In this document: positions 15,625 to 39,783 of the stretch, piece by piece
How the letters are laid out: the number at the start of each line of letters is the position of its first letter
Numbering within the stretch: the first letter of the stretch is position 1
Assembly (NCBI RefSeq): GCF_000173355.1
Contig: NZ_ABXA01000019.1
Location: 1-64,000, forward strand
Direction of reading: 5' to 3'
DNA: 64,000 bases
DNA from: Anaerococcus hydrogenalis DSM 7454
Lineage (GTDB): Bacteria > Bacillota > Clostridia > Tissierellales > Peptoniphilaceae
Made by a program: the position numbers and the translations under genes
Notes under the pieces: model-generated
What the model was told of the DNA's origin: nothing
The model's input: only the letters and a program-made list of their open reading frames with translations
Databases searched by the model: none

Positions 15625-16094
15625 TGGCAAATATTAATGAACTTATTGATGAAATTGAAGATATAATGGACAATGCTAGTTCTGTTCCATTTTCAAGAAA
15701 GGTATCAGTTGATCCTGATGAAATTTTTGAAATAATTAGGGATATGAGAGATTCTTTACCAACAGAAATTAAAAATGCCCAATGGATTAATGATGAAAAA
15801 GATAGAATTTTGCAAGAAGCTGAAAATGAAGCTAGGTCAAAGGTTGATAATGCAAATAATGAGATAAAAAATTTCAAAGAACAAGCTAAAAGTCAATATC
15901 AAAGAATGATTTCTGAACACCAAATCACAGCTGAGGCAAGACAAGAAGCACAAAGAATTTTAGAAGAAGCAAATCAACAAGCAAACAGTATCAAACAACA
16001 ATCATACCAATATGTTGATCAATTATTCTCAAAATCATGCGATAATTTTAATCAACTAGCTCAATCATTGGAAAAAATAGAAAACATATACTAA
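15624..16094 (+). CDS. conserved coiled-coil protein downstream of coaD
   Basis: I do not recognise a defined function. The 156-residue product has an acidic N-terminal segment (about 1-55) and a long charged, Ala/Gln-rich helix (about 60-140; for example EAENEARSKVDNANNEI), resembling DivIVA-type or ATP synthase b-subunit coiled coils. Clostridial genomes often carry such a gene beside coaD under the name ATPase. There is no signal peptide or membrane segment. An AGGAGG ribosome site precedes the ATG, and the gene is last in its transcription unit. Confidence 0.8.
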   Translation: MANINELIDEIEDIMDNASSVPFSRKVSVDPDEIFEIIRDMRDSLPTEIKNAQWINDEKDRILQEAENEARSKVDNANNEIKNFKEQAKSQYQRMISEHQITAEARQEAQRILEEANQQANSIKQQSYQYVDQLFSKSCDNFNQLAQSLEKIENIY

Positions 16095-27943: not shown

Positions 27944-30022
27944 ATGAAAGTAATTGTAGCTAAAAATTCTGGATTTTGTAATGGAGTTAGAAGAAGTGTA
28001 GACCTTGCAAATAAAGCAAGTGAAAAAAATAAAAAAACTTATACTCTAGGTCCCTTAGTCCATAATCCTACTCAAGTTCAAATGCTTGAAGATAAGGGCG
28101 TTGGAGTTATTGATGAAAATGAAGTTATAAAATTAAATGATTCCCAAATTGTAATAAGAAGCCATGGAGTTAGGGAAGAATTAAAAGATAATATAAGAAA
28201 AAATCAAAATAATGTAATAGATGCAACTTGCCCTGTTCTTATCAACATATATAAAAAAATAAAAGAGAAAGAAAATGAGGGATATAAGGTAGTAATTGTT
28301 GGTGATAAAAATCATCCTGAAATAAAAGCTATGGCATCTTACATAAATGATGGTATAATAATAAAAGATGAGACTGAAGCAAAAAATATTACAAATATGT
28401 CAAAACTTTATGTTGTTAGTCAAACAACAAACAGAATTGATTTTTTTGAGAATATTGCTCATGAGTTAGAGAAGACGAATGATGATGTAGTAATAGAAAA
28501 TACAATCTGCAATGCGACTAGATTAAGGCAAGAAGCATGTAAGAGTCTTTCAAAAGAAGTTGATTGTATGGTTGTTGTTGGTGGTTTTAATAGTTCGAAT
28601 ACAAACAAGCTTTATCAAATAGCACAAAAGTATTGTAAAAATGTTCAAAGAATAGAAACTGTTAAAGATCTACCTTTGCAAAAGCTCTCAAATTTTAATA
28701 TAATAGGGGTAATCGCTGGTGCATCCACACCAGATAAGGTTATCGAGGAGGTAGTTAATAGGATGGATGATTTAACAAATGAAGAATTAATGAACAGCAT
28801 TGAAGATAGTATGAAAAAAATATATCCAAGAGATGTTGTAAATGGAACAATTATTGATGTGAAAGATGATGAGGTTTTTGTAGATATTCAATATCGTGCA
28901 GACGGAATCGTAAAACTTGACGAAATGACTGAAGAAGAAAAAGAAAACCCAAAAGATCATTTCGAAGTTGGCCAAGAAATCGAAGTTTATGTAATTAAAC
29001 TTGATGATGGCGAAGGTAACGTAGCTTTATCTACTAGAAGAGTAGAAGGAATGAAAAATTGGAAAAACCTAAGAGAAGCTTTTGAAAATGATCAAACAGT
29101 AGAAGGTGATATTACTGGATCAAACAAGGGTGGATTAACAGCAAGAGTTATGGGAATCAACGGTTTTGTTCCAGCAAGCCAAATTGCACCATATTTTGTT
29201 AAAAACTTCAAAAAATTTGTAGGAGAACATTGGGATCTTAAAATCATTTCAATTGATGAAAGAAAAAATCGTCTAGTTTTATCAAGAAAAGATATAGTTG
29301 AAGAAAAACTTGATGAACAATGGGATGAATTAGAAGAAGGCCAAGTAATCACAGGTAAAGTTGCAAGACTAACTGACTTTGGTGCTTTCGTAGAAATAGG
29401 AAGTCTTGATGGATTACTTCACGTTTCAGATATAGCTTGGACAAGAGTAGAACATCCAAAGGATGTTTTAAATATCGGAGATGATATTGAAGTTAAAATA
29501 TTAAAACTTAACAAAGAAAAGAACAGAATTTCTTTAGGAAGAAAACAACTTTTAGAAAAACCATTTGCAGAATTTACTAACAATCATGAAGTTGGTGATG
29601 TTATAAATGGAAAAGTTGTTAACTTATTAGACTTTGGTGCTTTCGTAGAAGTAAGTGAAGGTGTTGAAGGTTTAATCCACGTTTCTGAAATTTCATGGGA
29701 ACATGTAGAAAAACCATCAGATGAACTAACAGTTGGTGACGAAGTAGAAGTTAAAATCTTAAGCATCGACCCAGAAGAAGAAAAAATTGGTCTTTCTATC
29801 AAAGCTTTAAAAGAAGCTCCAGAAAGAACAGAAAGAAAACCAAGAAAAAATAATAACGAAGAAAACAAAAACAGATCTAATGCAAAAGCTAAAAGAAGAG
29901 CTGAAAAGAAAGAATCAAATAACGAATTTGGTGATAATGATTTAAATAACAACATTGGATTTGCTATAGAAGAAGTACTATCAGGTATTGAAATAGAAGA
30001 CGAAGATTCTACTGAAGAATAA
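27944..30022 (+). CDS. ispH: fused 4-hydroxy-3-methylbut-2-enyl diphosphate reductase / S1 RNA-binding protein
   Basis: The N-terminal 280 residues are IspH, the last MEP-pathway enzyme, with the three cluster-binding Cys (Cys12 in GFCNGV, Cys96 in DATCP, Cys189 in TICNAT) and the RSHG motif. From about residue 293 there are four S1-type OB folds (for example VVNGTIIDVKDDEVFVDI, VITGKVARLTDFGAFVEI, VINGKVVNLLDFGAFVEV), then a basic, Asn/Lys-rich tail. This IspH-S1 fusion is known in clostridia. No separate rpsA is visible, so the S1 half may serve the ribosome. The ORF is intact at 692 residues, with a codon shift to a highly expressed style in the S1 half. Confidence 0.95.
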   Translation: MKVIVAKNSGFCNGVRRSVDLANKASEKNKKTYTLGPLVHNPTQVQMLEDKGVGVIDENEVIKLNDSQIVIRSHGVREELKDNIRKNQNNVIDATCPVLINIYKKIKEKENEGYKVVIVGDKNHPEIKAMASYINDGIIIKDETEAKNITNMSKLYVVSQTTNRIDFFENIAHELEKTNDDVVIENTICNATRLRQEACKSLSKEVDCMVVVGGFNSSNTNKLYQIAQKYCKNVQRIETVKDLPLQKLSNFNIIGVIAGASTPDKVIEEVVNRMDDLTNEELMNSIEDSMKKIYPRDVVNGTIIDVKDDEVFVDIQYRADGIVKLDEMTEEEKENPKDHFEVGQEIEVYVIKLDDGEGNVALSTRRVEGMKNWKNLREAFENDQTVEGDITGSNKGGLTARVMGINGFVPASQIAPYFVKNFKKFVGEHWDLKIISIDERKNRLVLSRKDIVEEKLDEQWDELEEGQVITGKVARLTDFGAFVEIGSLDGLLHVSDIAWTRVEHPKDVLNIGDDIEVKILKLNKEKNRISLGRKQLLEKPFAEFTNNHEVGDVINGKVVNLLDFGAFVEVSEGVEGLIHVSEISWEHVEKPSDELTVGDEVEVKILSIDPEEEKIGLSIKALKEAPERTERKPRKNNNEENKNRSNAKAKRRAEKKESNNEFGDNDLNNNIGFAIEEVLSGIEIEDEDSTEE

Positions 30023-30045: not shown

Positions 30046-30076
30046 AAAAAGAGATGGGTAAAATCATCTCTTTTTT
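30046..30076 (+). terminator. intrinsic terminator after ispH-S1
   Basis: AAAAAGAGATG (30046-30056) pairs with CATCTCTTTTT (30065-30075) around an 8-nt loop, and the T run continues to 30076. It separates the housekeeping run from miaB. No clear promoter for miaB is seen in the 16 nt that follow. Confidence 0.85.
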
Positions 30077-30092
30077 GGTTCTAAGGAGATAT

Positions 30093-31445
30093 ATGCAATT
30101 AAAAATTAATGAAAAGTATAAGGATTATTTTAAAGGCAAAAAATATAATATAACAACTTTTGGTTGCCAGATGAATGAACATGATTCTGAAAGAATATCT
30201 TATATTTTAGAAGATTTAGGTTATACACTGACAGACGATAGAAATGAAGCTGATTTTATTTTATTCAATACTTGCTTGGTAAGAGAAAATGCAGAACTAA
30301 AATTATATGGGCAAGTTAGCAGTTTAAAAAAATTAAAAGAAGAAAATCCCGAAAAAATAATTGCTGTGTCAGGCTGCATGATGCAAACAAGTGTTGCAAG
30401 GGAAGTTATTGAGAAAAAACATAAAGAAGTTGATATTATTTTTGGTACAAAAAATATTAATTCCTTACCAGATTTATTATTTAAATATCTAGAAGCAGGA
30501 GAAAGGGTTATAGATGTATCTGAAGATAATGTTAAAGATGATTATGTAAATTACAACAGTAAAAATAATTTCCAAGCTTATGTAAATATAATGACTGGAT
30601 GCGATAATTTCTGCTCTTACTGTATAGTGCCTCAATCAAGAGGAAGAGAAGAAAGTAGAAGACCATCTCATATTATAGAAGAGATAGAAAATTTGGTTAA
30701 TAATGGTTACAAAGAAATAACCTTACTTGGGCAAAATGTAAATTCTTATGGAAATAAATCTGATTTTAATGTAACTTTTCCAGAACTTTTAGAAAGATGC
30801 GCTCAAATAGAAGGACTAGAAAGACTAAGATTTACAACAAGCCATCCTAAAGACTTATCTGATGATTTGATTAGGGTAATTAAAGAAAATGATAATATTT
30901 GCAATTATTTCCACCTACCTATGCAGTCAGGTTCCGATAAGGTTCTTAAAGATATGAATAGAAAATACAACAAAGAGCAATATCTAGAAAAGGCTAGAAA
31001 ATTAAGGGAAGAAATTCCAAATATAGCAATTTCTACTGATATTATTGTAGGCTATCCTACAGAAACGGAAGAAGATTTCCAAGAAACTTTGGATGTTTGT
31101 AGAAAAGTTGGTTTTGATACAGCATTTACATTTAAATATTCACCAAGACCAAAAACAAAAGCAGCAAAACTTGAGACGATTGATGAAAAAATAGTTCAAG
31201 ATAGGTTTGATAGATTACTAGATACCTTATACCCAGTATTTAATGAAAAAAATAAAGAATATGTTGGGAAAGTTGTTGATGTTTTATTAGAATCAGAAAG
31301 TAAAAATAACAAGAATGTACTTACTGGAAGGACAGATACCTTTAAGCTAGTTCATGTTGAAGCTGATAAGAAATTAATAGGACAGATTGTAAAAGTAAAA
31401 ATAACTGATAACACATCATTTACCATTTCTGGTCATTTAGTTTAA
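30093..31445 (+). CDS. miaB: tRNA-2-methylthio-N6-dimethylallyladenosine synthase
   Basis: A radical-SAM methylthiotransferase modifying A37 in tRNAs reading UNN codons. The N-terminal UPF0004 domain has its three Cys (TFGCQMNEHD with Cys25, FNTCLVREN, VSGCMMQ), the radical-SAM CxxxCxxC lies in TGCDNFCSYCIVP, and the C-terminal TRAM domain ends in SFTISGHLV. The start at 30093 is fixed by AAGGAGAT just upstream; an earlier in-frame ATG at 30054 lies inside the terminator. Length is 450 residues. The V-ATPase operon starts 20 nt later and may be read through. Confidence 0.96.
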   Translation: MQLKINEKYKDYFKGKKYNITTFGCQMNEHDSERISYILEDLGYTLTDDRNEADFILFNTCLVRENAELKLYGQVSSLKKLKEENPEKIIAVSGCMMQTSVAREVIEKKHKEVDIIFGTKNINSLPDLLFKYLEAGERVIDVSEDNVKDDYVNYNSKNNFQAYVNIMTGCDNFCSYCIVPQSRGREESRRPSHIIEEIENLVNNGYKEITLLGQNVNSYGNKSDFNVTFPELLERCAQIEGLERLRFTTSHPKDLSDDLIRVIKENDNICNYFHLPMQSGSDKVLKDMNRKYNKEQYLEKARKLREEIPNIAISTDIIVGYPTETEEDFQETLDVCRKVGFDTAFTFKYSPRPKTKAAKLETIDEKIVQDRFDRLLDTLYPVFNEKNKEYVGKVVDVLLESESKNNKNVLTGRTDTFKLVHVEADKKLIGQIVKVKITDNTSFTISGHLV

Positions 31446-31465: not shown

Positions 31466-32443
31466 ATGAAGGCTTATGTAGTTAAAGCAAAAGCTAAACT
31501 TGGTAAATTGCCTAAAAAAGAAACTTGTAGAGATTTATTATATGAAGATAGTTTGGAAAGAAAGTTTGATATAATTAGAAATAATAATAGTGAAATACCT
31601 AATTTATCTTCTAAAAAAGATTTAGAAATCTTTCTTTCAAATAAACTATACGATGACTTGTATTCTTTTTTGAAATTTTTAAAAGGTGAAGAAAAGGAAT
31701 TTTTCATAAAATATATTTCAAAATTTGAATTACAACTTATGCAATTAATAGTTCAAGCTATTATTAACAATCATTTAGATGACAGTTTAGATATTATAAA
31801 AAGAGAAAAATTTTCACATGATATAAATGTCTCAAAGGATGATGATTTTGAAAGTTTTGTAAGAAAGTCTAAATCAAGTAAGTATTATAGGACTCTTTAT
31901 CCATTTTTAAATGAAAACATAGAAAAGAAGTCTATTATATTTTTAATTTCAAATTCTTTAAATAAATTATATTATAGACAATTACTTGAAGAGTCAAAGA
32001 AGTTACCAAAGAATATTGGCTTTGAATTAAAAGATTTTGTAGGTAAGCAAATAGATATTTTTAATATAGAAATGTTATATAGGTTAAAGAGAAACTTCTC
32101 TCTAAATAACTATGAAATATTTAATTATTTAATTGAGGGGGGTAAATATTTAAGAACAAAAGACTTGAAAAAATTATCAAGTTTAGATTTTAATAAATTT
32201 AAAGATGAGATTTTAAAAACAAATTATAAAGACTTATTTCTTTCTACCTATAACTTTTACAAGGCTAAAGAAGATTTGTTAAGTGAAAATTCAAAGAAAT
32301 TATCAAGTTCTAAATATGACTTGTTAAATTTAATTTATATAGTAGATATGATGACAATTTCAAATAAAAATATTATAAGTATATTAGAATTTGATGAAAC
32401 ATTTGATAAGGATGAAAAGAAACATTATATAATAAAGAGGTGA
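31466..32443 (+). CDS. ntpC: V-type ATP synthase subunit C
   Basis: The central-stalk socket (V-ATPase d/C family) that joins the rotor ring to the D-F shaft. The 325-residue protein is mostly helical; FVGKQIDIFNIEMLYRLKRNF matches the family motif for the repeated helical bundle. It is more diverged than the A, B and K subunits. It is the first gene of the operon, whereas C usually follows E in other Firmicutes. The only upstream gap is 20 nt after miaB. Confidence 0.85.
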   Translation: MKAYVVKAKAKLGKLPKKETCRDLLYEDSLERKFDIIRNNNSEIPNLSSKKDLEIFLSNKLYDDLYSFLKFLKGEEKEFFIKYISKFELQLMQLIVQAIINNHLDDSLDIIKREKFSHDINVSKDDDFESFVRKSKSSKYYRTLYPFLNENIEKKSIIFLISNSLNKLYYRQLLEESKKLPKNIGFELKDFVGKQIDIFNIEMLYRLKRNFSLNNYEIFNYLIEGGKYLRTKDLKKLSSLDFNKFKDEILKTNYKDLFLSTYNFYKAKEDLLSENSKKLSSSKYDLLNLIYIVDMMTISNKNIISILEFDETFDKDEKKHYIIKR

Positions 32444-32447
32444 TAAT

Positions 32448-33319
32448 ATGGCTGTCGAAAAAATGCACTTGGTTAATATTATGGCAAGGCTAGATAATCT
32501 TGATGATTTTTTAGAAGATTTAATAGATATTGATGAATTTGACCAAGTTGATGCTTTTAGACAAATACAAAACAGAGAATTTTCGATTAGAGCAAGTGAA
32601 GAAAATATTGAAAAAACTGAGGACTTTAATGATCTTGAAAGTTTTGATAAAGTAGATACTTCATTTATAAATAAACTTGAAGATATAAAAGATTTTCTAA
32701 ATTTAGATGATTCTAAGGGCGGCAGAAGAATTAATGATGAAAAACTTAAAAATTTGCTAGAAATATTTGAAGAGAATATTGAAAAGAAAAAAGCTTTAGA
32801 AGAAAGAAATGACAAACTTGAAGAGTATTTAAACAATTTGCAAGCTCTTGAAAATGAAGAAATTGATATAAATAAAATAACAAGCTTAAATTATTTCGAT
32901 TATAGGCTTGGAGAAGTTAGTAAAGATGGAAGATTTATCTTAAAAAATAACTATGAATCAATCCCATCACTAATTATTCATTTACAAAAAAATGACCCTG
33001 ATATAGAAAAAAATAAAGAGGCCTTAAAAAGTATTTATAGCATAGATGATGAAACTTCTAAGCTAAGAAAAGATACAGATAATATCATAAAAAATGAAAA
33101 AGATAATGTAAATAAAGTAAGCTTAGAATTGTCAAAAGATTACGATAAAAAACAAAAGAAGATGCTAATAAATTCTATGATGATATATTAAAAGAGGCAG
33201 ATTATAAGAATAAAGAAATTGAAAGTTTCTATGAAAAGCAAAAAGTAGAAAGTGAAAAAGTATTTAAGGCTAAGAAAGAAAACTTAGTTAAGGAATTTTT
33301 CAAAAAAATTATTGAATAA
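32448..33319 (+). CDS. V-ATPase subunit I N-terminal-like domain fused to an H/G-like coiled coil (frameshifted)
   Basis: Residues 1-180 look like the start of V-ATPase subunit I: MAVEKMHLVNI, a coiled helix (about 70-140), then the beginning of the distal lobe (FDYRLGEVSKDGRF, YESIPSLIIHL). From about 185 to the end it is a continuous charged helix (TDNIIKNEKDNVNK, KEADYKNKEIESFYEKQ, ending EFFKKIIE) like the peripheral-stalk subunit H/G. The subunit I continuation is found only in the next gene. The frame breaks at six A (33147-33152); seven restores one ORF of 290 residues ending at TAA 33317. Homology calls here are by eye. An alternative is a local rearrangement of an ordinary I gene. 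Confidence 0.6.
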
Positions 33320-33336
33320 TAAAGAAAGGAGGTTTT

Positions 33337-34751
33337 ATGAATTTATTAGAAAAATTTGGCTTTAAAGATAGGTCAAGAAATAATCGTGACCAATCTATAG
33401 AAAGTGGAAATGAAGATTATCTATTAGTTTATCCAAAAAGTGTAGAAGATGAAGTAAATAGGACTATATCTTCGCTTGGCTTTATTGACAAGGATATACC
33501 AGATGGCAAAAGTATTGATGAAATAAAAAAGAATATGAAGATAATAAGTCTAAACTTAAAGAAATAGACAATAAACTTAAAAAAATAAAAGATGATAATA
33601 TCGATGATCTTAAAAATTTACCTAAAACCATAGATTTTTATAAAAAATCATCAAAGCTTAAGGATAAAATGTTAAAGGGTCGAAAATATTTTTATTTATC
33701 AGGGTGGGTCCCAGAGTCTAAAATACAATTAGTTAAAGATACAGTCGACAAGTATGAAGATAGCTTAGTCGACCAAAAAAAAAATAGCCAAACAATAGCT
33801 AATCCACCTACAAAGTTAAAAAATAATAAAATAACTAGGCCTTTTGAATTCTTGGTAAATATGTATGGAGCACCAAATTATAACGAAATAGATCCAACAG
33901 GGTTTTTTGCTATAACTTATATGCTCTTATACGGAATGATGTTTGGAGATTTGGGCCAAGGATTAGTATTTGTTTTAGCTAGTTTTTTGATAGAAAAGAA
34001 AAGTAAAATTTTCGGTCAATTAATTAGAAGAATTGGTTTTTCAGCATCGTTTTTTGGCTTGATGTATGGTTCTGTTTTTGGTATAGAAGATTTGATTCCA
34101 ACAATTTTAATTAAGCCTTTTGATAATATAATTAAAGTTTTGATAGCATCTGTTGCTTTTGGTGTAATATTGATGATAATAGCCTATATTTTAGGAATTT
34201 ACAATAAGCTTCACAAGCAAAAAGATTTTGAAGAAGGTGTATTTGGCAAAGAAGGATTTGCAGGATTATTGATGATGATTTCATTTATCTTAATAATTTT
34301 AAATATAGTCAAAGTTAATCCTATGCCAATGACAGTTTCAATTATATTATTAATTTTATCAATAGTAATGATGGTATTTAAACAACCTATTTCAAGAAAA
34401 TTATTAGATATTTATCCAATATATGACCAGTCAAGTTCTGATTATTATATAGAGAGTTCCTTTTCAATTATAGAGGCTCTACTATCTGTATTTTCAAATC
34501 TTGTATCTTTTACAAGAGTTGGAGCATTTGCCATAAACCACGTAGGCTTATATATGGCATTTGAAGTAATGAGCAAACTTGTAGGTGGTGGATTTATTGG
34601 GATAATAATTTTAATCTTAGGAAATATTTTAATTATAGGTCTTGAAGGTATGATCGTATTTATTCAAGGTTTAAGACTGGAATTTTACGAAATGTTTAGT
34701 AAATATTACAAGGGTGATGGACAAAAATTTAGTCCAATTAGTAAATTATAA
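33337..34751 (+). CDS. ntpI: V-type ATP synthase subunit I, lacking the usual N-terminus (frameshifted)
   Basis: The membrane stator subunit forming the ion half-channels. It begins mid-lobe (EDYLLVYPKSVEDEVNRTISSLGF), continues through the returning coiled coil to YFYLSGWVPESK, then the conserved PPTKLKNNK and MYGAPNYNEIDPT and a block of about seven membrane helices (FFAITYMLLYGMMFGDLGQG, SFTRVGAFAINHVGLYMAF). A perfect AAAGGAGG site gives a real start at 33337, so it is translated apart from the preceding gene, which carries the missing N-terminal part. Six A at 33525-33530 break the frame; seven gives about 471 residues. Confidence 0.87.
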
Positions 34752-34761
34752 GGAGAAAAAA

Positions 34762-35187
34762 ATGATTTTAGTTTCAATATTAGCATTAGCTTGTGTAGTA
34801 ATGACAATTTATTCAGGTTTATACCTATTAAAAAATAACGAAGATGCGTCAAAAGATAAAATAAGAAAAGCATTAAAGATTAATTTATCAACATTTGTTC
34901 CAATAATGGTTATGATATTAGTTTTAGTTTTACCAAATGGTGTAAAAGCTGCAGCAGCAGGATCTGCCAGTGATGCCGGAAATGGTTTAAAATATATTGG
35001 TGCAGCACTTTCAACAGGACTTGCAACAATAGGAACAGGATATGCAGTTGGTCAAGTAGGATCAGCAGCTTTAGGTGCAATTTCAGAAGATGCGTCAATT
35101 CTTGGTAGAACAATAATTTTCGTAGGACTTGCTGAAGGTATTGCAATCTTTGGTGTAATTATTTCAATAATGATTTTATTTGCTTAA
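34762..35187 (+). CDS. ntpK: V-type ATP synthase subunit K (proteolipid ring)
   Basis: The rotor-ring proteolipid that carries ions across the membrane. In 141 residues there are four hydrophobic helices: 1-22, about 44-60, about 76-105 and about 113-141. Only the second hairpin has the ion-site residues: Gln98 in TGYAVGQVGSA and Glu125 in GLAEGIAIFG. The first helix pair looks like an added leader or insertion hairpin. The start at 34762 is fixed by AAGGAGA; an upstream in-frame start reads into ntpI. Gln plus Glu is compatible with Na+ coupling, but this is not proven. Confidence 0.92.
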   Translation: MILVSILALACVVMTIYSGLYLLKNNEDASKDKIRKALKINLSTFVPIMVMILVLVLPNGVKAAAAGSASDAGNGLKYIGAALSTGLATIGTGYAVGQVGSAALGAISEDASILGRTIIFVGLAEGIAIFGVIISIMILFA

Positions 35188-35439: not shown

Positions 35440-36060
35440 ATGCTAGATTTAAGTGCAAAAATTTCTAGTTTTAGAAAAATGGTCTGGTCAAATGAAAAAA
35501 GAAAAAGTGAAAAAGAATTATATGAATCTACAGATTCATCTTCTAAAACTTTAAATGAAATGAAAGATCGTTTAGATAAAAACTATAGGAAATATATAGA
35601 AAAGAGAAAAGAATTTGCTAATTCTAGAAAGAATGAAAAAATAGCAAATATATCTCAACATAAAAAAACTTCATATAATAAGTTTAAGGAATCTTTGTTA
35701 AATCAATTAATTGATGAAATCAAAGATGAATTAATTGAATATAGCAAAAGTGAACAATATAAAGAAAAACTAAAAAGTGAAGCAAGTAAAGTTTTTAAAA
35801 AACTATCAGAGGATAATCAAGATTTAATTTTATGTGTAAAAAGATCTGATCAAGATCTGTTTGACTTTGACACTGATATTATAGATGATTCAAAAATTGG
35901 AGGCTTTGTAATAAAAAGCAAGGATTTAACCTATCAATATGATTATTCTTTAGAAAAAAAATTAGAAAACTATAAATACGAAATCGGAAGTAAATTTTAT
36001 AAAATAATTTCTGATGAATATGAAAAGGAAATGGAGGATGAAAATGACTCCAACAATTAA
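35440..36060 (+). CDS. ntpE: V-type ATP synthase subunit E (peripheral stalk)
   Basis: The peripheral stalk subunit joining the catalytic head to subunit I. The 206-residue product has a long charged helix (about 10-115) and a small globular C-terminus (IGGFVIKSKDLTYQYDYSLEKKLE) as in the family. An AAAGGAGA site precedes the ATG. It overlaps ntpA by 17 nt. Sequence similarity is low, as is normal for E, and the call depends partly on operon position. Confidence 0.82.
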   Translation: MLDLSAKISSFRKMVWSNEKRKSEKELYESTDSSSKTLNEMKDRLDKNYRKYIEKRKEFANSRKNEKIANISQHKKTSYNKFKESLLNQLIDEIKDELIEYSKSEQYKEKLKSEASKVFKKLSEDNQDLILCVKRSDQDLFDFDTDIIDDSKIGGFVIKSKDLTYQYDYSLEKKLENYKYEIGSKFYKIISDEYEKEMEDENDSNN

Positions 36061-39165: not shown

Positions 39166-39783
39166 GACAAAATTTGCTCCAACAAAGGCAAATTTAATGA
39201 AGGCCAAAAGTCAACTTGACTTGATTAACGAGGGTTATGATATTCTTGATAAAAAAGAAAAGCCTTGATTGGTCAGTATAATGCAAAAATAAACCAAAGA
39301 AATGAATTAAATAAGATTGTAAATTCTTATATTAAAGATGTTAAGAAAAATATTAAAAAGGCTATAGTTACTACTGGGGAAGATAGGCTAAAATCAATAG
39401 CCTTATCTGTTCCGATAGATAATTCCATATCTTTAAAAGAGAAAAAATTTATGCAAACAAAAATTTTTGAAATTAGTTTTGATGAAAAGAAATTAGACTT
39501 GTCATATTCATTAAATCTAACAAATTCTTTGTTTGATGAAGCTCTTATTTCTTTGAATGATTTGAAAGAAAAGGTATATAAATTAGCAGAACTTGATACA
39601 ACTATTAAAAATTTGGATACTGAAATCAAAAAAACTTCAAAGAAGGTAAATTCTCTAGAGAAAGTACAAATTCCAAATTATAAGTCTATAATAAAGTCCA
39701 TTTCAGGTCAAATAGAAGAAAGAGAAAGAGAAGAATTTTCTAAAACAAAAATGGTTAAGGATAAAAAAAATTCAAAAAGGTAA
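39158..39783 (+). CDS. ntpD: V-type ATP synthase subunit D (frameshifted in this sequence)
   Basis: The rotor shaft, two long antiparallel helices inside the head. The N-terminus [27 protein letters not shown] is a clear D signature and the second long helix (about 120-200) follows. The frame breaks at six A (39251-39256); seven would give Asp-Lys-Lys-Arg-Lys-Ala-Leu-Ile and a single 208-residue protein. The gene overlaps ntpB and ends the operon; its stop codon lies in the terminator stem. Confidence 0.93.

Follow-up and report, generated by a model that had tools for sequence, protein, structure and literature searches.

A split subunit I carrying the stalk subunit H in a V/A-type ATPase operon of Anaerococcus

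Rotary ATPases are familiar from textbooks, and their subunit layouts are stable. Among the V/A-type enzymes, subunit I (NtpI; subunit a of eukaryotes) is known from the Thermus and Enterococcus structures. In Thermus its soluble arm consists of a proximal and a distal subdomain, which bind the two EG stalks (PMC7367684, PMC6131620), with two such stalks for each arm subunit in an a1E2G2 arrangement (PMC7367684). The N-terminal end of a stalk docks at the distal lobe (PMC7367684), a hinge or elbow has been proposed at the arm-stalk joint (PMC5758568), and the membrane domain carries the Arg R563 (PMC5758568). The stalk subunit H/G, a helix of about 100 residues, also goes by the names AhaH and NtpF. 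Outside this family, two described cases bear likeness to the locus reported here. The b-delta fusion of the mycobacterial F-ATP synthase combines a covalent stator fusion with a duplicated attachment domain (PMC8617483); however, the enzyme is of the F-type, whole subunits are fused, no subunit is split by an insertion, and we make no claim of homology. The insertional fission of mitochondrial cox2 in a scoliid wasp replaced one gene by two that complement each other and whose products presumably pair (PMC5374615), but there a cluster of antiparallel overlapping ORFs, rather than a fused partner subunit, lies between the halves.

We analyzed a V-ATPase operon in a 64,000-nucleotide stretch of the Anaerococcus hydrogenalis DSM 7454 genome (henceforth the window). 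In comparison with the known subunit I, all of its domains are encoded here in order, and a fold match extends over both products; however, two polypeptides take the place of one, the break falling at the distal lobe's tip, with the stalk subunit fused to the first. In comparison with a free H/G, the helix is homologous end to end to the free H of the same operon type, but it has no gene of its own and its N-terminus is joined to the arm. The parts come from known families; what departs from them is the splitting of subunit I together with the fusion of H to its first half. An earlier note, made from the DNA without database searches, had proposed such a split with an H/G-like coil at the junction and knew of no described example. 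Both the split and the fused coil held, on the basis of the loci of relatives and the profile matches given below, although coiled-coil pairing is only inferred. We likewise found no described example in the open-access literature searched, judging from titles and the beginnings of abstracts, with subscription papers outside the scope of the search.

The window operon has the order C, I-N::H, I-C, K, F, E, A, B, D, in which I-N and I-C are the first and second parts of subunit I. Pfam recognizes C, I-C, K and F and, by a weak match only, E; the remaining three genes we take, by eye, to be A, B and D. The first gene, subunit C, lies at 31466-32443 on the forward strand, as do all the features given here with a match or motif (PF01992, E=3e-28). 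The ORF immediately upstream (30054-31445), which we take by eye to be MiaB-like, occupies the place where outgroups carry a free H. Another ORF (27944-30022; 692 aa) appears to the eye to be in two parts, one IspH-like and one ribosomal protein S1-like. Elsewhere in the window, at 15801-16001, an ORF of 161 aa shows a weak match to PF16999 (V-ATPase_G_2; E=5.4e-4), below the cut-off. The fusion gene I-N::H (32448-33319; 290-297 aa in relatives) encodes the first half of the soluble arm followed by a complete H. Its I-N segment (residues 1-180; 32448-32987) covers the first part of the proximal lobe, the outgoing coil and the first half of the distal lobe, a strand-helix-strand unit; the H segment (33015-33316), matched by the free-H profile, is a helix of about 100 residues, and the stop is at 33317-33319. 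A Shine-Dalgarno-like AAAGGAGG, read directly at 33325-33332, precedes the ATG of I-C at 33337, in keeping with the claim of the earlier note that the second gene starts from a new ATG with a good ribosome site. I-C (33337-34751; PF01496 on 33669-34748, E=5.7e-30) encodes, from about 33409, the part of the distal lobe that I-N lacks, then the returning coil, the remainder of the proximal lobe and the membrane domain; relatives whose I-C has just one arm half show a length of 453-477 aa. The ring subunit K follows at 34762-35187 (141 aa; PF00137, E=4e-15); the Pfam ring domain spans just residues 79-138 of it, and additional hydrophobic segments are visible by eye N-terminal to this. Subunit E (35440-36060) is open over its full length and matches PF01991 only at E=0.0077, under the curated cut-off, though its position agrees with that in the other loci read. 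It is the expected partner of the fused H helix, an inference for which we have no data on the heterodimer.

In the window both halves are frame-broken, each at a run of A's. I-N::H is open up to the run at 33147-33152 and then in the -1 frame to its stop; I-C is broken at the run at 33525-33530, after which the frame is open again to 34751. The nearest relative available for comparison is A. senegalensis (L007), with a subunit A 97% identical to that of the window over 591 columns, and it has one more A in both runs. I-N::H is unbroken in 26/26 loci of relatives and I-C in 24/26, being broken elsewhere, at another A-run, in L007 and L029. Since the relatives are open at these places and L007 has the additional A, the two breaks are most likely base-calling, sequencing or assembly errors in the window genome, a draft of 84% completeness in 52 contigs. 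We also weighed programmed -1 slippage at 33147 and rejected it, because the frame is simply open at that place in relatives. At 34756, 35636 and 39251, too, the window is one A short of L007 in a run of A's. Not every such difference is an error of the window, because at 35636 its subunit E is open and that of L007 is the broken one. The run at 39251 lies just upstream of TTG 39265, the called start of subunit D, and may have truncated that start. A run of ten A's is also seen within I-C at 33775-33784; in L007, whose I-C is frame-broken, this run is shorter by one A, and the I-C of L029 is broken at the corresponding place.

In profile-profile comparisons (hhalign), I-N aligned from Met1 with 20 unsplit subunit I proteins of Clostridia (E=3e-8) and the fused tail aligned end to end with 19 free H's (E=1.2e-5); the cross-pairings, tail against I arm and I-N against H, gave only E=0.3-0.4. 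Both matches are far beyond chance. A profile built from eight free H's, none of them from Anaerococcus, had the tail of the fused gene as its best match in 30/31 genomes of the genus (E 3e-17 to 2e-5), with no match to the tail in the remaining one (G016). In the window genome (G000:C34) it matched 33119-33316 (E=2.3e-5) and, when read through the frame break, 33015-33305 (E=0.003). All other matches to this profile in the 31 genomes had E-values of 7.5e-4 or weaker, one of these being a second piece of the window gene; at that sensitivity, then, no second H of this type was found in the genus. A profile of the fused gene in turn recovered 51 unsplit subunit I frames, with E-values down to 2.8e-34.

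Family libraries give a different picture. PF01496 has no match on I-N::H, the NCBIfam subunit I models match the fused protein weakly (best E=2.7e-4), and PF03179 matches 6/20 fused proteins (best E=6.6e-5). A search of the window genome with PF16999 returned nothing above the cut-off, Pfam also misses four free H's of this operon type, and a PDB sequence search with the fused alignment gave two chance-level matches (E 0.12 and 0.52). The libraries alone would thus seem to refute the subunit I identity, while profiles made from relatives do not. This bears on the earlier note, which had taken the absence of a subunit I profile match to residues 1-180 as grounds for refutation: such an absence is what Pfam returns, and NCBIfam is weak, but against profiles from relatives the match is clear and the claim stands.

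The second product is readily recognized. A PDB search with a profile from an alignment of 20 relatives' I-C proteins finds E. hirae subunit I (E=2.3e-36), and the I-C of one relative, L009, matches PF01496 at E=1.5e-30. In the membrane domain a conserved S-F-T-R segment aligns with S-Y-T-R of the E. hirae protein, and its Arg (R393 in L009) is invariant in 20/20 aligned rows; that it is the counterpart of Thermus R563 is inferred, without a direct alignment. As regards membership of subunit I, homology to the N-terminal arm and a membrane domain with the Arg are both present, and what is not met is encoding as one polypeptide (two genes in 26/26 loci). As regards the stalk H/G family, whole-length homology is present and the separate gene is not (fused in 33/33 genomes of the clade). 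All three segments are under purifying selection: in eight species pairs dN/dS was 0.06-0.18 for I-N, 0.08-0.35 for H and 0.06-0.31 for I-C, given only where dS was computable, with dS saturated for H in two pairs.

In a MAFFT alignment with six unsplit I proteins, H and its linker are inserted where one distal-lobe strand gives way to another, thereby locating the insertion at the loop at the tip of that lobe. The two pieces together cover the parent arm as a split protein should, overlapping by just seven residues of the reference arm: when the stand-alone arm of L096 (see below) is compared with the L028 pair, its residues 1-198 align with I-N and 192-341 with I-C. We modeled both L009 products as one chain, the stop being read as glycine, which is an artificial joining, and obtained a model of modest quality (mean pLDDT 72.9, pTM 0.46). 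In it the I-N elements (E2-4, E6-14, H97-136, E150-157, H159-167, E175-178) are followed by the H helix (186-289), a low-confidence, flexible linker (282-319) and a strand (321-328) with which the distal lobe is predicted to resume. The best Foldseek match is Thermus subunit I (6r0z_N, E=8.9e-17). Structural superposition gave Z 14.2 with 6r0z_N (model residues 3-743, rmsd 8.3, 550 aligned) and Z 9.8 with 3rrk, the crystal structure of a subunit I arm (6-443, rmsd 8.4, 255 aligned); Z-scores under about 13 may reflect merely a common arrangement in helical models. With so large an rmsd, and with a Z near 10 not being strong for a helical model, this match supports the predicted closure of the arm halves without proving it; strand pairing in particular is presumed, without inspection of coordinates. 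Likewise, the one-chain model is compatible with I-N and I-C binding each other in the cell, which is inferred without experiment, and the coiled-coil heterodimer of the fused H with E is also an inference, as the model shows just a single long helix. The suggestion in the earlier note that a fusion at the stalk-binding part of the arm would be structurally sensible is nevertheless supported by the Thermus literature (PMC7367684) and by this modest model.

A scan of named genomes with I-C yielded 47 loci. In all 26 belonging to the Anaerococcus group, including two from near MAGs, a gene of 290-297 aa is paired with one of 453-477 or 607-687 aa, and a separate gene for the membrane domain and what remains of the arm is present in all 28 related loci that were read. 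Conversely, the 21 outgroup loci from other Clostridia have I as one gene in 20 cases and a small free H gene before C in 19, the exceptions being loci that start inside I (L035) or too late for H (L035 and L041). Subunit C was left unread in five loci by a position filter (L022, L024, L025, L028, L030). A fused-profile search of 130 family genomes gave a match in 89 and none in 41. Fused-length matches, spanning profile positions 1-291, occur in 31/31 genomes of the genus Anaerococcus and in both genomes of the neighboring genus g17 (G068, G069). In 51 other family genomes the I part lies within one frame of 643-671 aa; in 44 of these the H part matches apart from it, at a distance of about 1.0-1.3 kb. 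Four of these H matches run across at least one stop, but one of the four genomes (G054) proved on direct reading to have a plain 102-aa H gene. The other seven had no H match in this search, though one of them, G124, has a free H when read directly (L093). Not included in the 51 are G065 and G119, with truncated or broken I frames, and G058, G061 and G103, with an H match only; G207, with a short I-N frame cut by the contig end, was not counted. Direct reading of five family genomes that do not belong to the fused clade (L091-L095) showed the order H-C-I. The search for further fusions was confined to the taxonomic order (249 genomes at E of at most 1e-12).

Since the outgroups carry a free H before C, this is the outgroup state and the fusion is derived; and as other family genomes have a whole I with a free H before C, it is H that moved into I. 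A tree of subunit A that included nine unfused rows, and lacked L036 and L094 for want of an obtained subunit A, supports a single origin of the fusion (SH-aLRT 98). The operon comparison across Anaerococcus and its relatives therefore upholds the split and fusion as genus-wide, and relatives with a free H and a whole I do exist, but only outside the fused clade among the genomes searched. On one point the earlier note failed: it took the fused gene to stand where H is normally found, before I, whereas this operon type has H before C. Its statement that no separate H gene is present held only in part: none of this type was found, but the genome has a second V-ATPase operon with a free one. This operon lies on another contig (G000 contig C6, about 68.6-71.5 kb; L002) and is canonical, with an 86-aa H directly before an unsplit 646-aa I, and with a ring subunit of 155 aa. 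Such an additional subunit I, unsplit and 641-660 aa long, is present in 31/31 genomes of the genus (frame-broken in G037).

In the 26 loci I-C starts near the end of I-N::H, the exception being a gap of 102 bases in L027. Several near relatives share the Shine-Dalgarno-like motif of the window, and other loci show stop-start contact or an overlapping start, the picture expected of two neighboring and mostly coupled genes. In G068 a frame of 879 aa was considered as an unsplit I-N::H::I-C and rejected in favor of two genes with a TGA between them.

We consider it likely that these operons encode a V/A-type ATPase that works, and that H left its place before C for the gene for I, leaving an arm made by two genes. 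There are no protein data, and the reassembly, stoichiometry and function are inferred. I-N::H would supply the first arm half and then the H helix, I-C the second arm half and the membrane domain, and the two would refold together into one arm, in the manner of a split protein. The H helix would leave the distal lobe directly, pair with subunit E and reach the top of the catalytic head, such that one stalk is covalently tethered to the arm and not docked on it. The polarity of the fusion is right for such tethering because in Thermus the N-terminal end of a stalk docks at the distal lobe. The likeliest stoichiometry would be two I-N::H per enzyme because Thermus holds two G (equivalent to H) per arm subunit: if H is available only as I-N::H and there are two stalks, there must be two I-N.

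A possible trace of this stoichiometry is seen in I-C. In eight loci (L022, L024, L025, L027, L028, L030, L031, L088), seven around A. octavius and that of G068, the arm half of I-C occurs twice in tandem, the copies being 36-58% identical. The doubled unit comprises the second half of the distal lobe, the returning coil and the remainder of the proximal lobe. The proximal-lobe motif GWVP is altered in the first of the two copies. The doubling is present in 8/28 fused loci on the subunit A tree, not counting the window; G032 and G034 have I-C frames of 612 aa, the size of the doubled forms, though this rests on length only. No unsplit I frame longer than 671 aa was found in the 51 family genomes. 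In the tree of half-domains the two copies from the seven-locus clade form a group (100/98.8 for the ingroup, 93/99 with outgroups), while a single clade of doubled loci is rejected on the subunit A tree (p-AU 0.0006). As the copies of the octavius group cluster in this way and the doubled loci do not form one clade, the doubling most likely arose at least twice within the fused clade. A single ancestral doubling, with all first copies in one clade, had p-AU 0.0501 on the half-domain tree, at the border of rejection; it is opposed by the copy grouping and the subunit A tree, and is disfavored rather than cleanly rejected. A model of a doubled species was too poor for use (pLDDT 59.8, pTM 0.31).

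The presence of doubling in fused lineages and its absence from the 51 genomes with an unsplit I suggests, by inference, two I-N::H chains per enzyme. Against the two-chain view stands the fact that I-C has just one arm half in the window and in the majority of the fused loci read, as a second I-N::H would have no partner in these species. A bolder reading is that there are two I-N::H per enzyme and that in the lineages with doubled I-C each of them could complete an arm of its own, giving two separate arms on one membrane subunit; on balance we lean slightly against it. In a genus of the same order (g85; G232-G234) we observed a stand-alone soluble arm of 344 aa between C and a full-length I (L096:4703-5737, L097:4964-5998, and L098 on the reverse strand). 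It ends just before the membrane domain and in L096 is 43% identical to the arm of the neighboring I. It is another supply of a second soluble arm in the same operon type, but is complete and unsplit, with no H fused to it and H as a separate gene. The doublings and this extra arm suggest that a second arm is useful in this branch.

Several alternatives to this account need weighing. The split might be an assembly or sequencing artefact, in which two homopolymer errors combine with a mis-joined H gene. In its favor, the genome is a draft and the window has one A fewer than L007 in both frame-breaking runs, and drafts of the group do carry A-run errors, L007 itself being broken in subunit E and I-C. 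However, the same junction is found in 26/26 loci, from named or MAG assemblies, and throughout the genus; it does not depend on the window assembly, because it is also present in three fused genomes each recorded as a single contig (G016, G032, G038). Nor do assemblies split I at random, because the I of the second operon is unsplit in the same 31 genomes, save for the frame break in G037. We regard this explanation as all but excluded. Alternatively, the operon could be decaying, with I broken by the insertion of H and this second ATPase heading for loss, as the splitting of a central subunit and the frame breaks in some drafts might suggest. This is very unlikely given the conservation across the genus, dN/dS well under 1 in all segments, the open K, F, E and A genes downstream in the fused loci L088-L090, and the invariant membrane Arg. 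It is also conceivable that I-N::H and I-C are joined in the cell by readthrough of the stop codon, since I-C is in frame with a gap of 0 in nine loci, 9-15 bases in seven and 3 in L088. Against this, other loci are out of frame (gaps of 5, 11, 14, 16 and 17) or overlapping, and these retain the start codon of I-C, mostly with a recognizable ribosome site; moreover, the stop varies among loci (TAA, TAG, TGA), and in G068 subunits C and A also terminate in TGA. Hence, we hold readthrough to be very improbable.

The alternative that is harder to dismiss concerns stoichiometry. There may be a single tethered stalk, with one I-N::H per enzyme and the second stalk either missing or using the H of the second operon. 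One I-N per I-C is the simplest arrangement for the species with a single arm half, and the second operon, with its own 86-aa H in the same genome and its I in 31/31 genomes of the genus, offers a source: its free H could conceivably serve the second stalk, which would tell against both H's coming from the fusion. However, the I of the second operon has diverged far from the split form, with parts of which it shares 25-46% identity, and because of this a swap-in of its H is doubtful, although the H's themselves were not directly compared. Further, that fused lineages doubled the arm half of I-C on separate occasions agrees better with two I-N. A single tethered stalk remains possible, with two I-N::H per enzyme as our preferred inference.

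What emerges is a stator strut apparently welded covalently to the arm that carries it, with the arm cut at the same point, and this arrangement kept across a genus of anaerobes. Given the hinge or elbow proposed at the arm-stalk joint, the fusion makes it testable how much flexibility that joint needs and how the asymmetry of two stalks and one arm can be remade. If the two-arm reading is true, gene architecture would set the stoichiometry of the stator, with one type of polypeptide supplying both stalks and both arm halves, and the free second arm gene of g85 would have solved the same problem in parallel. With its arm half doubled repeatedly, the group offers a natural experiment on stator stoichiometry.
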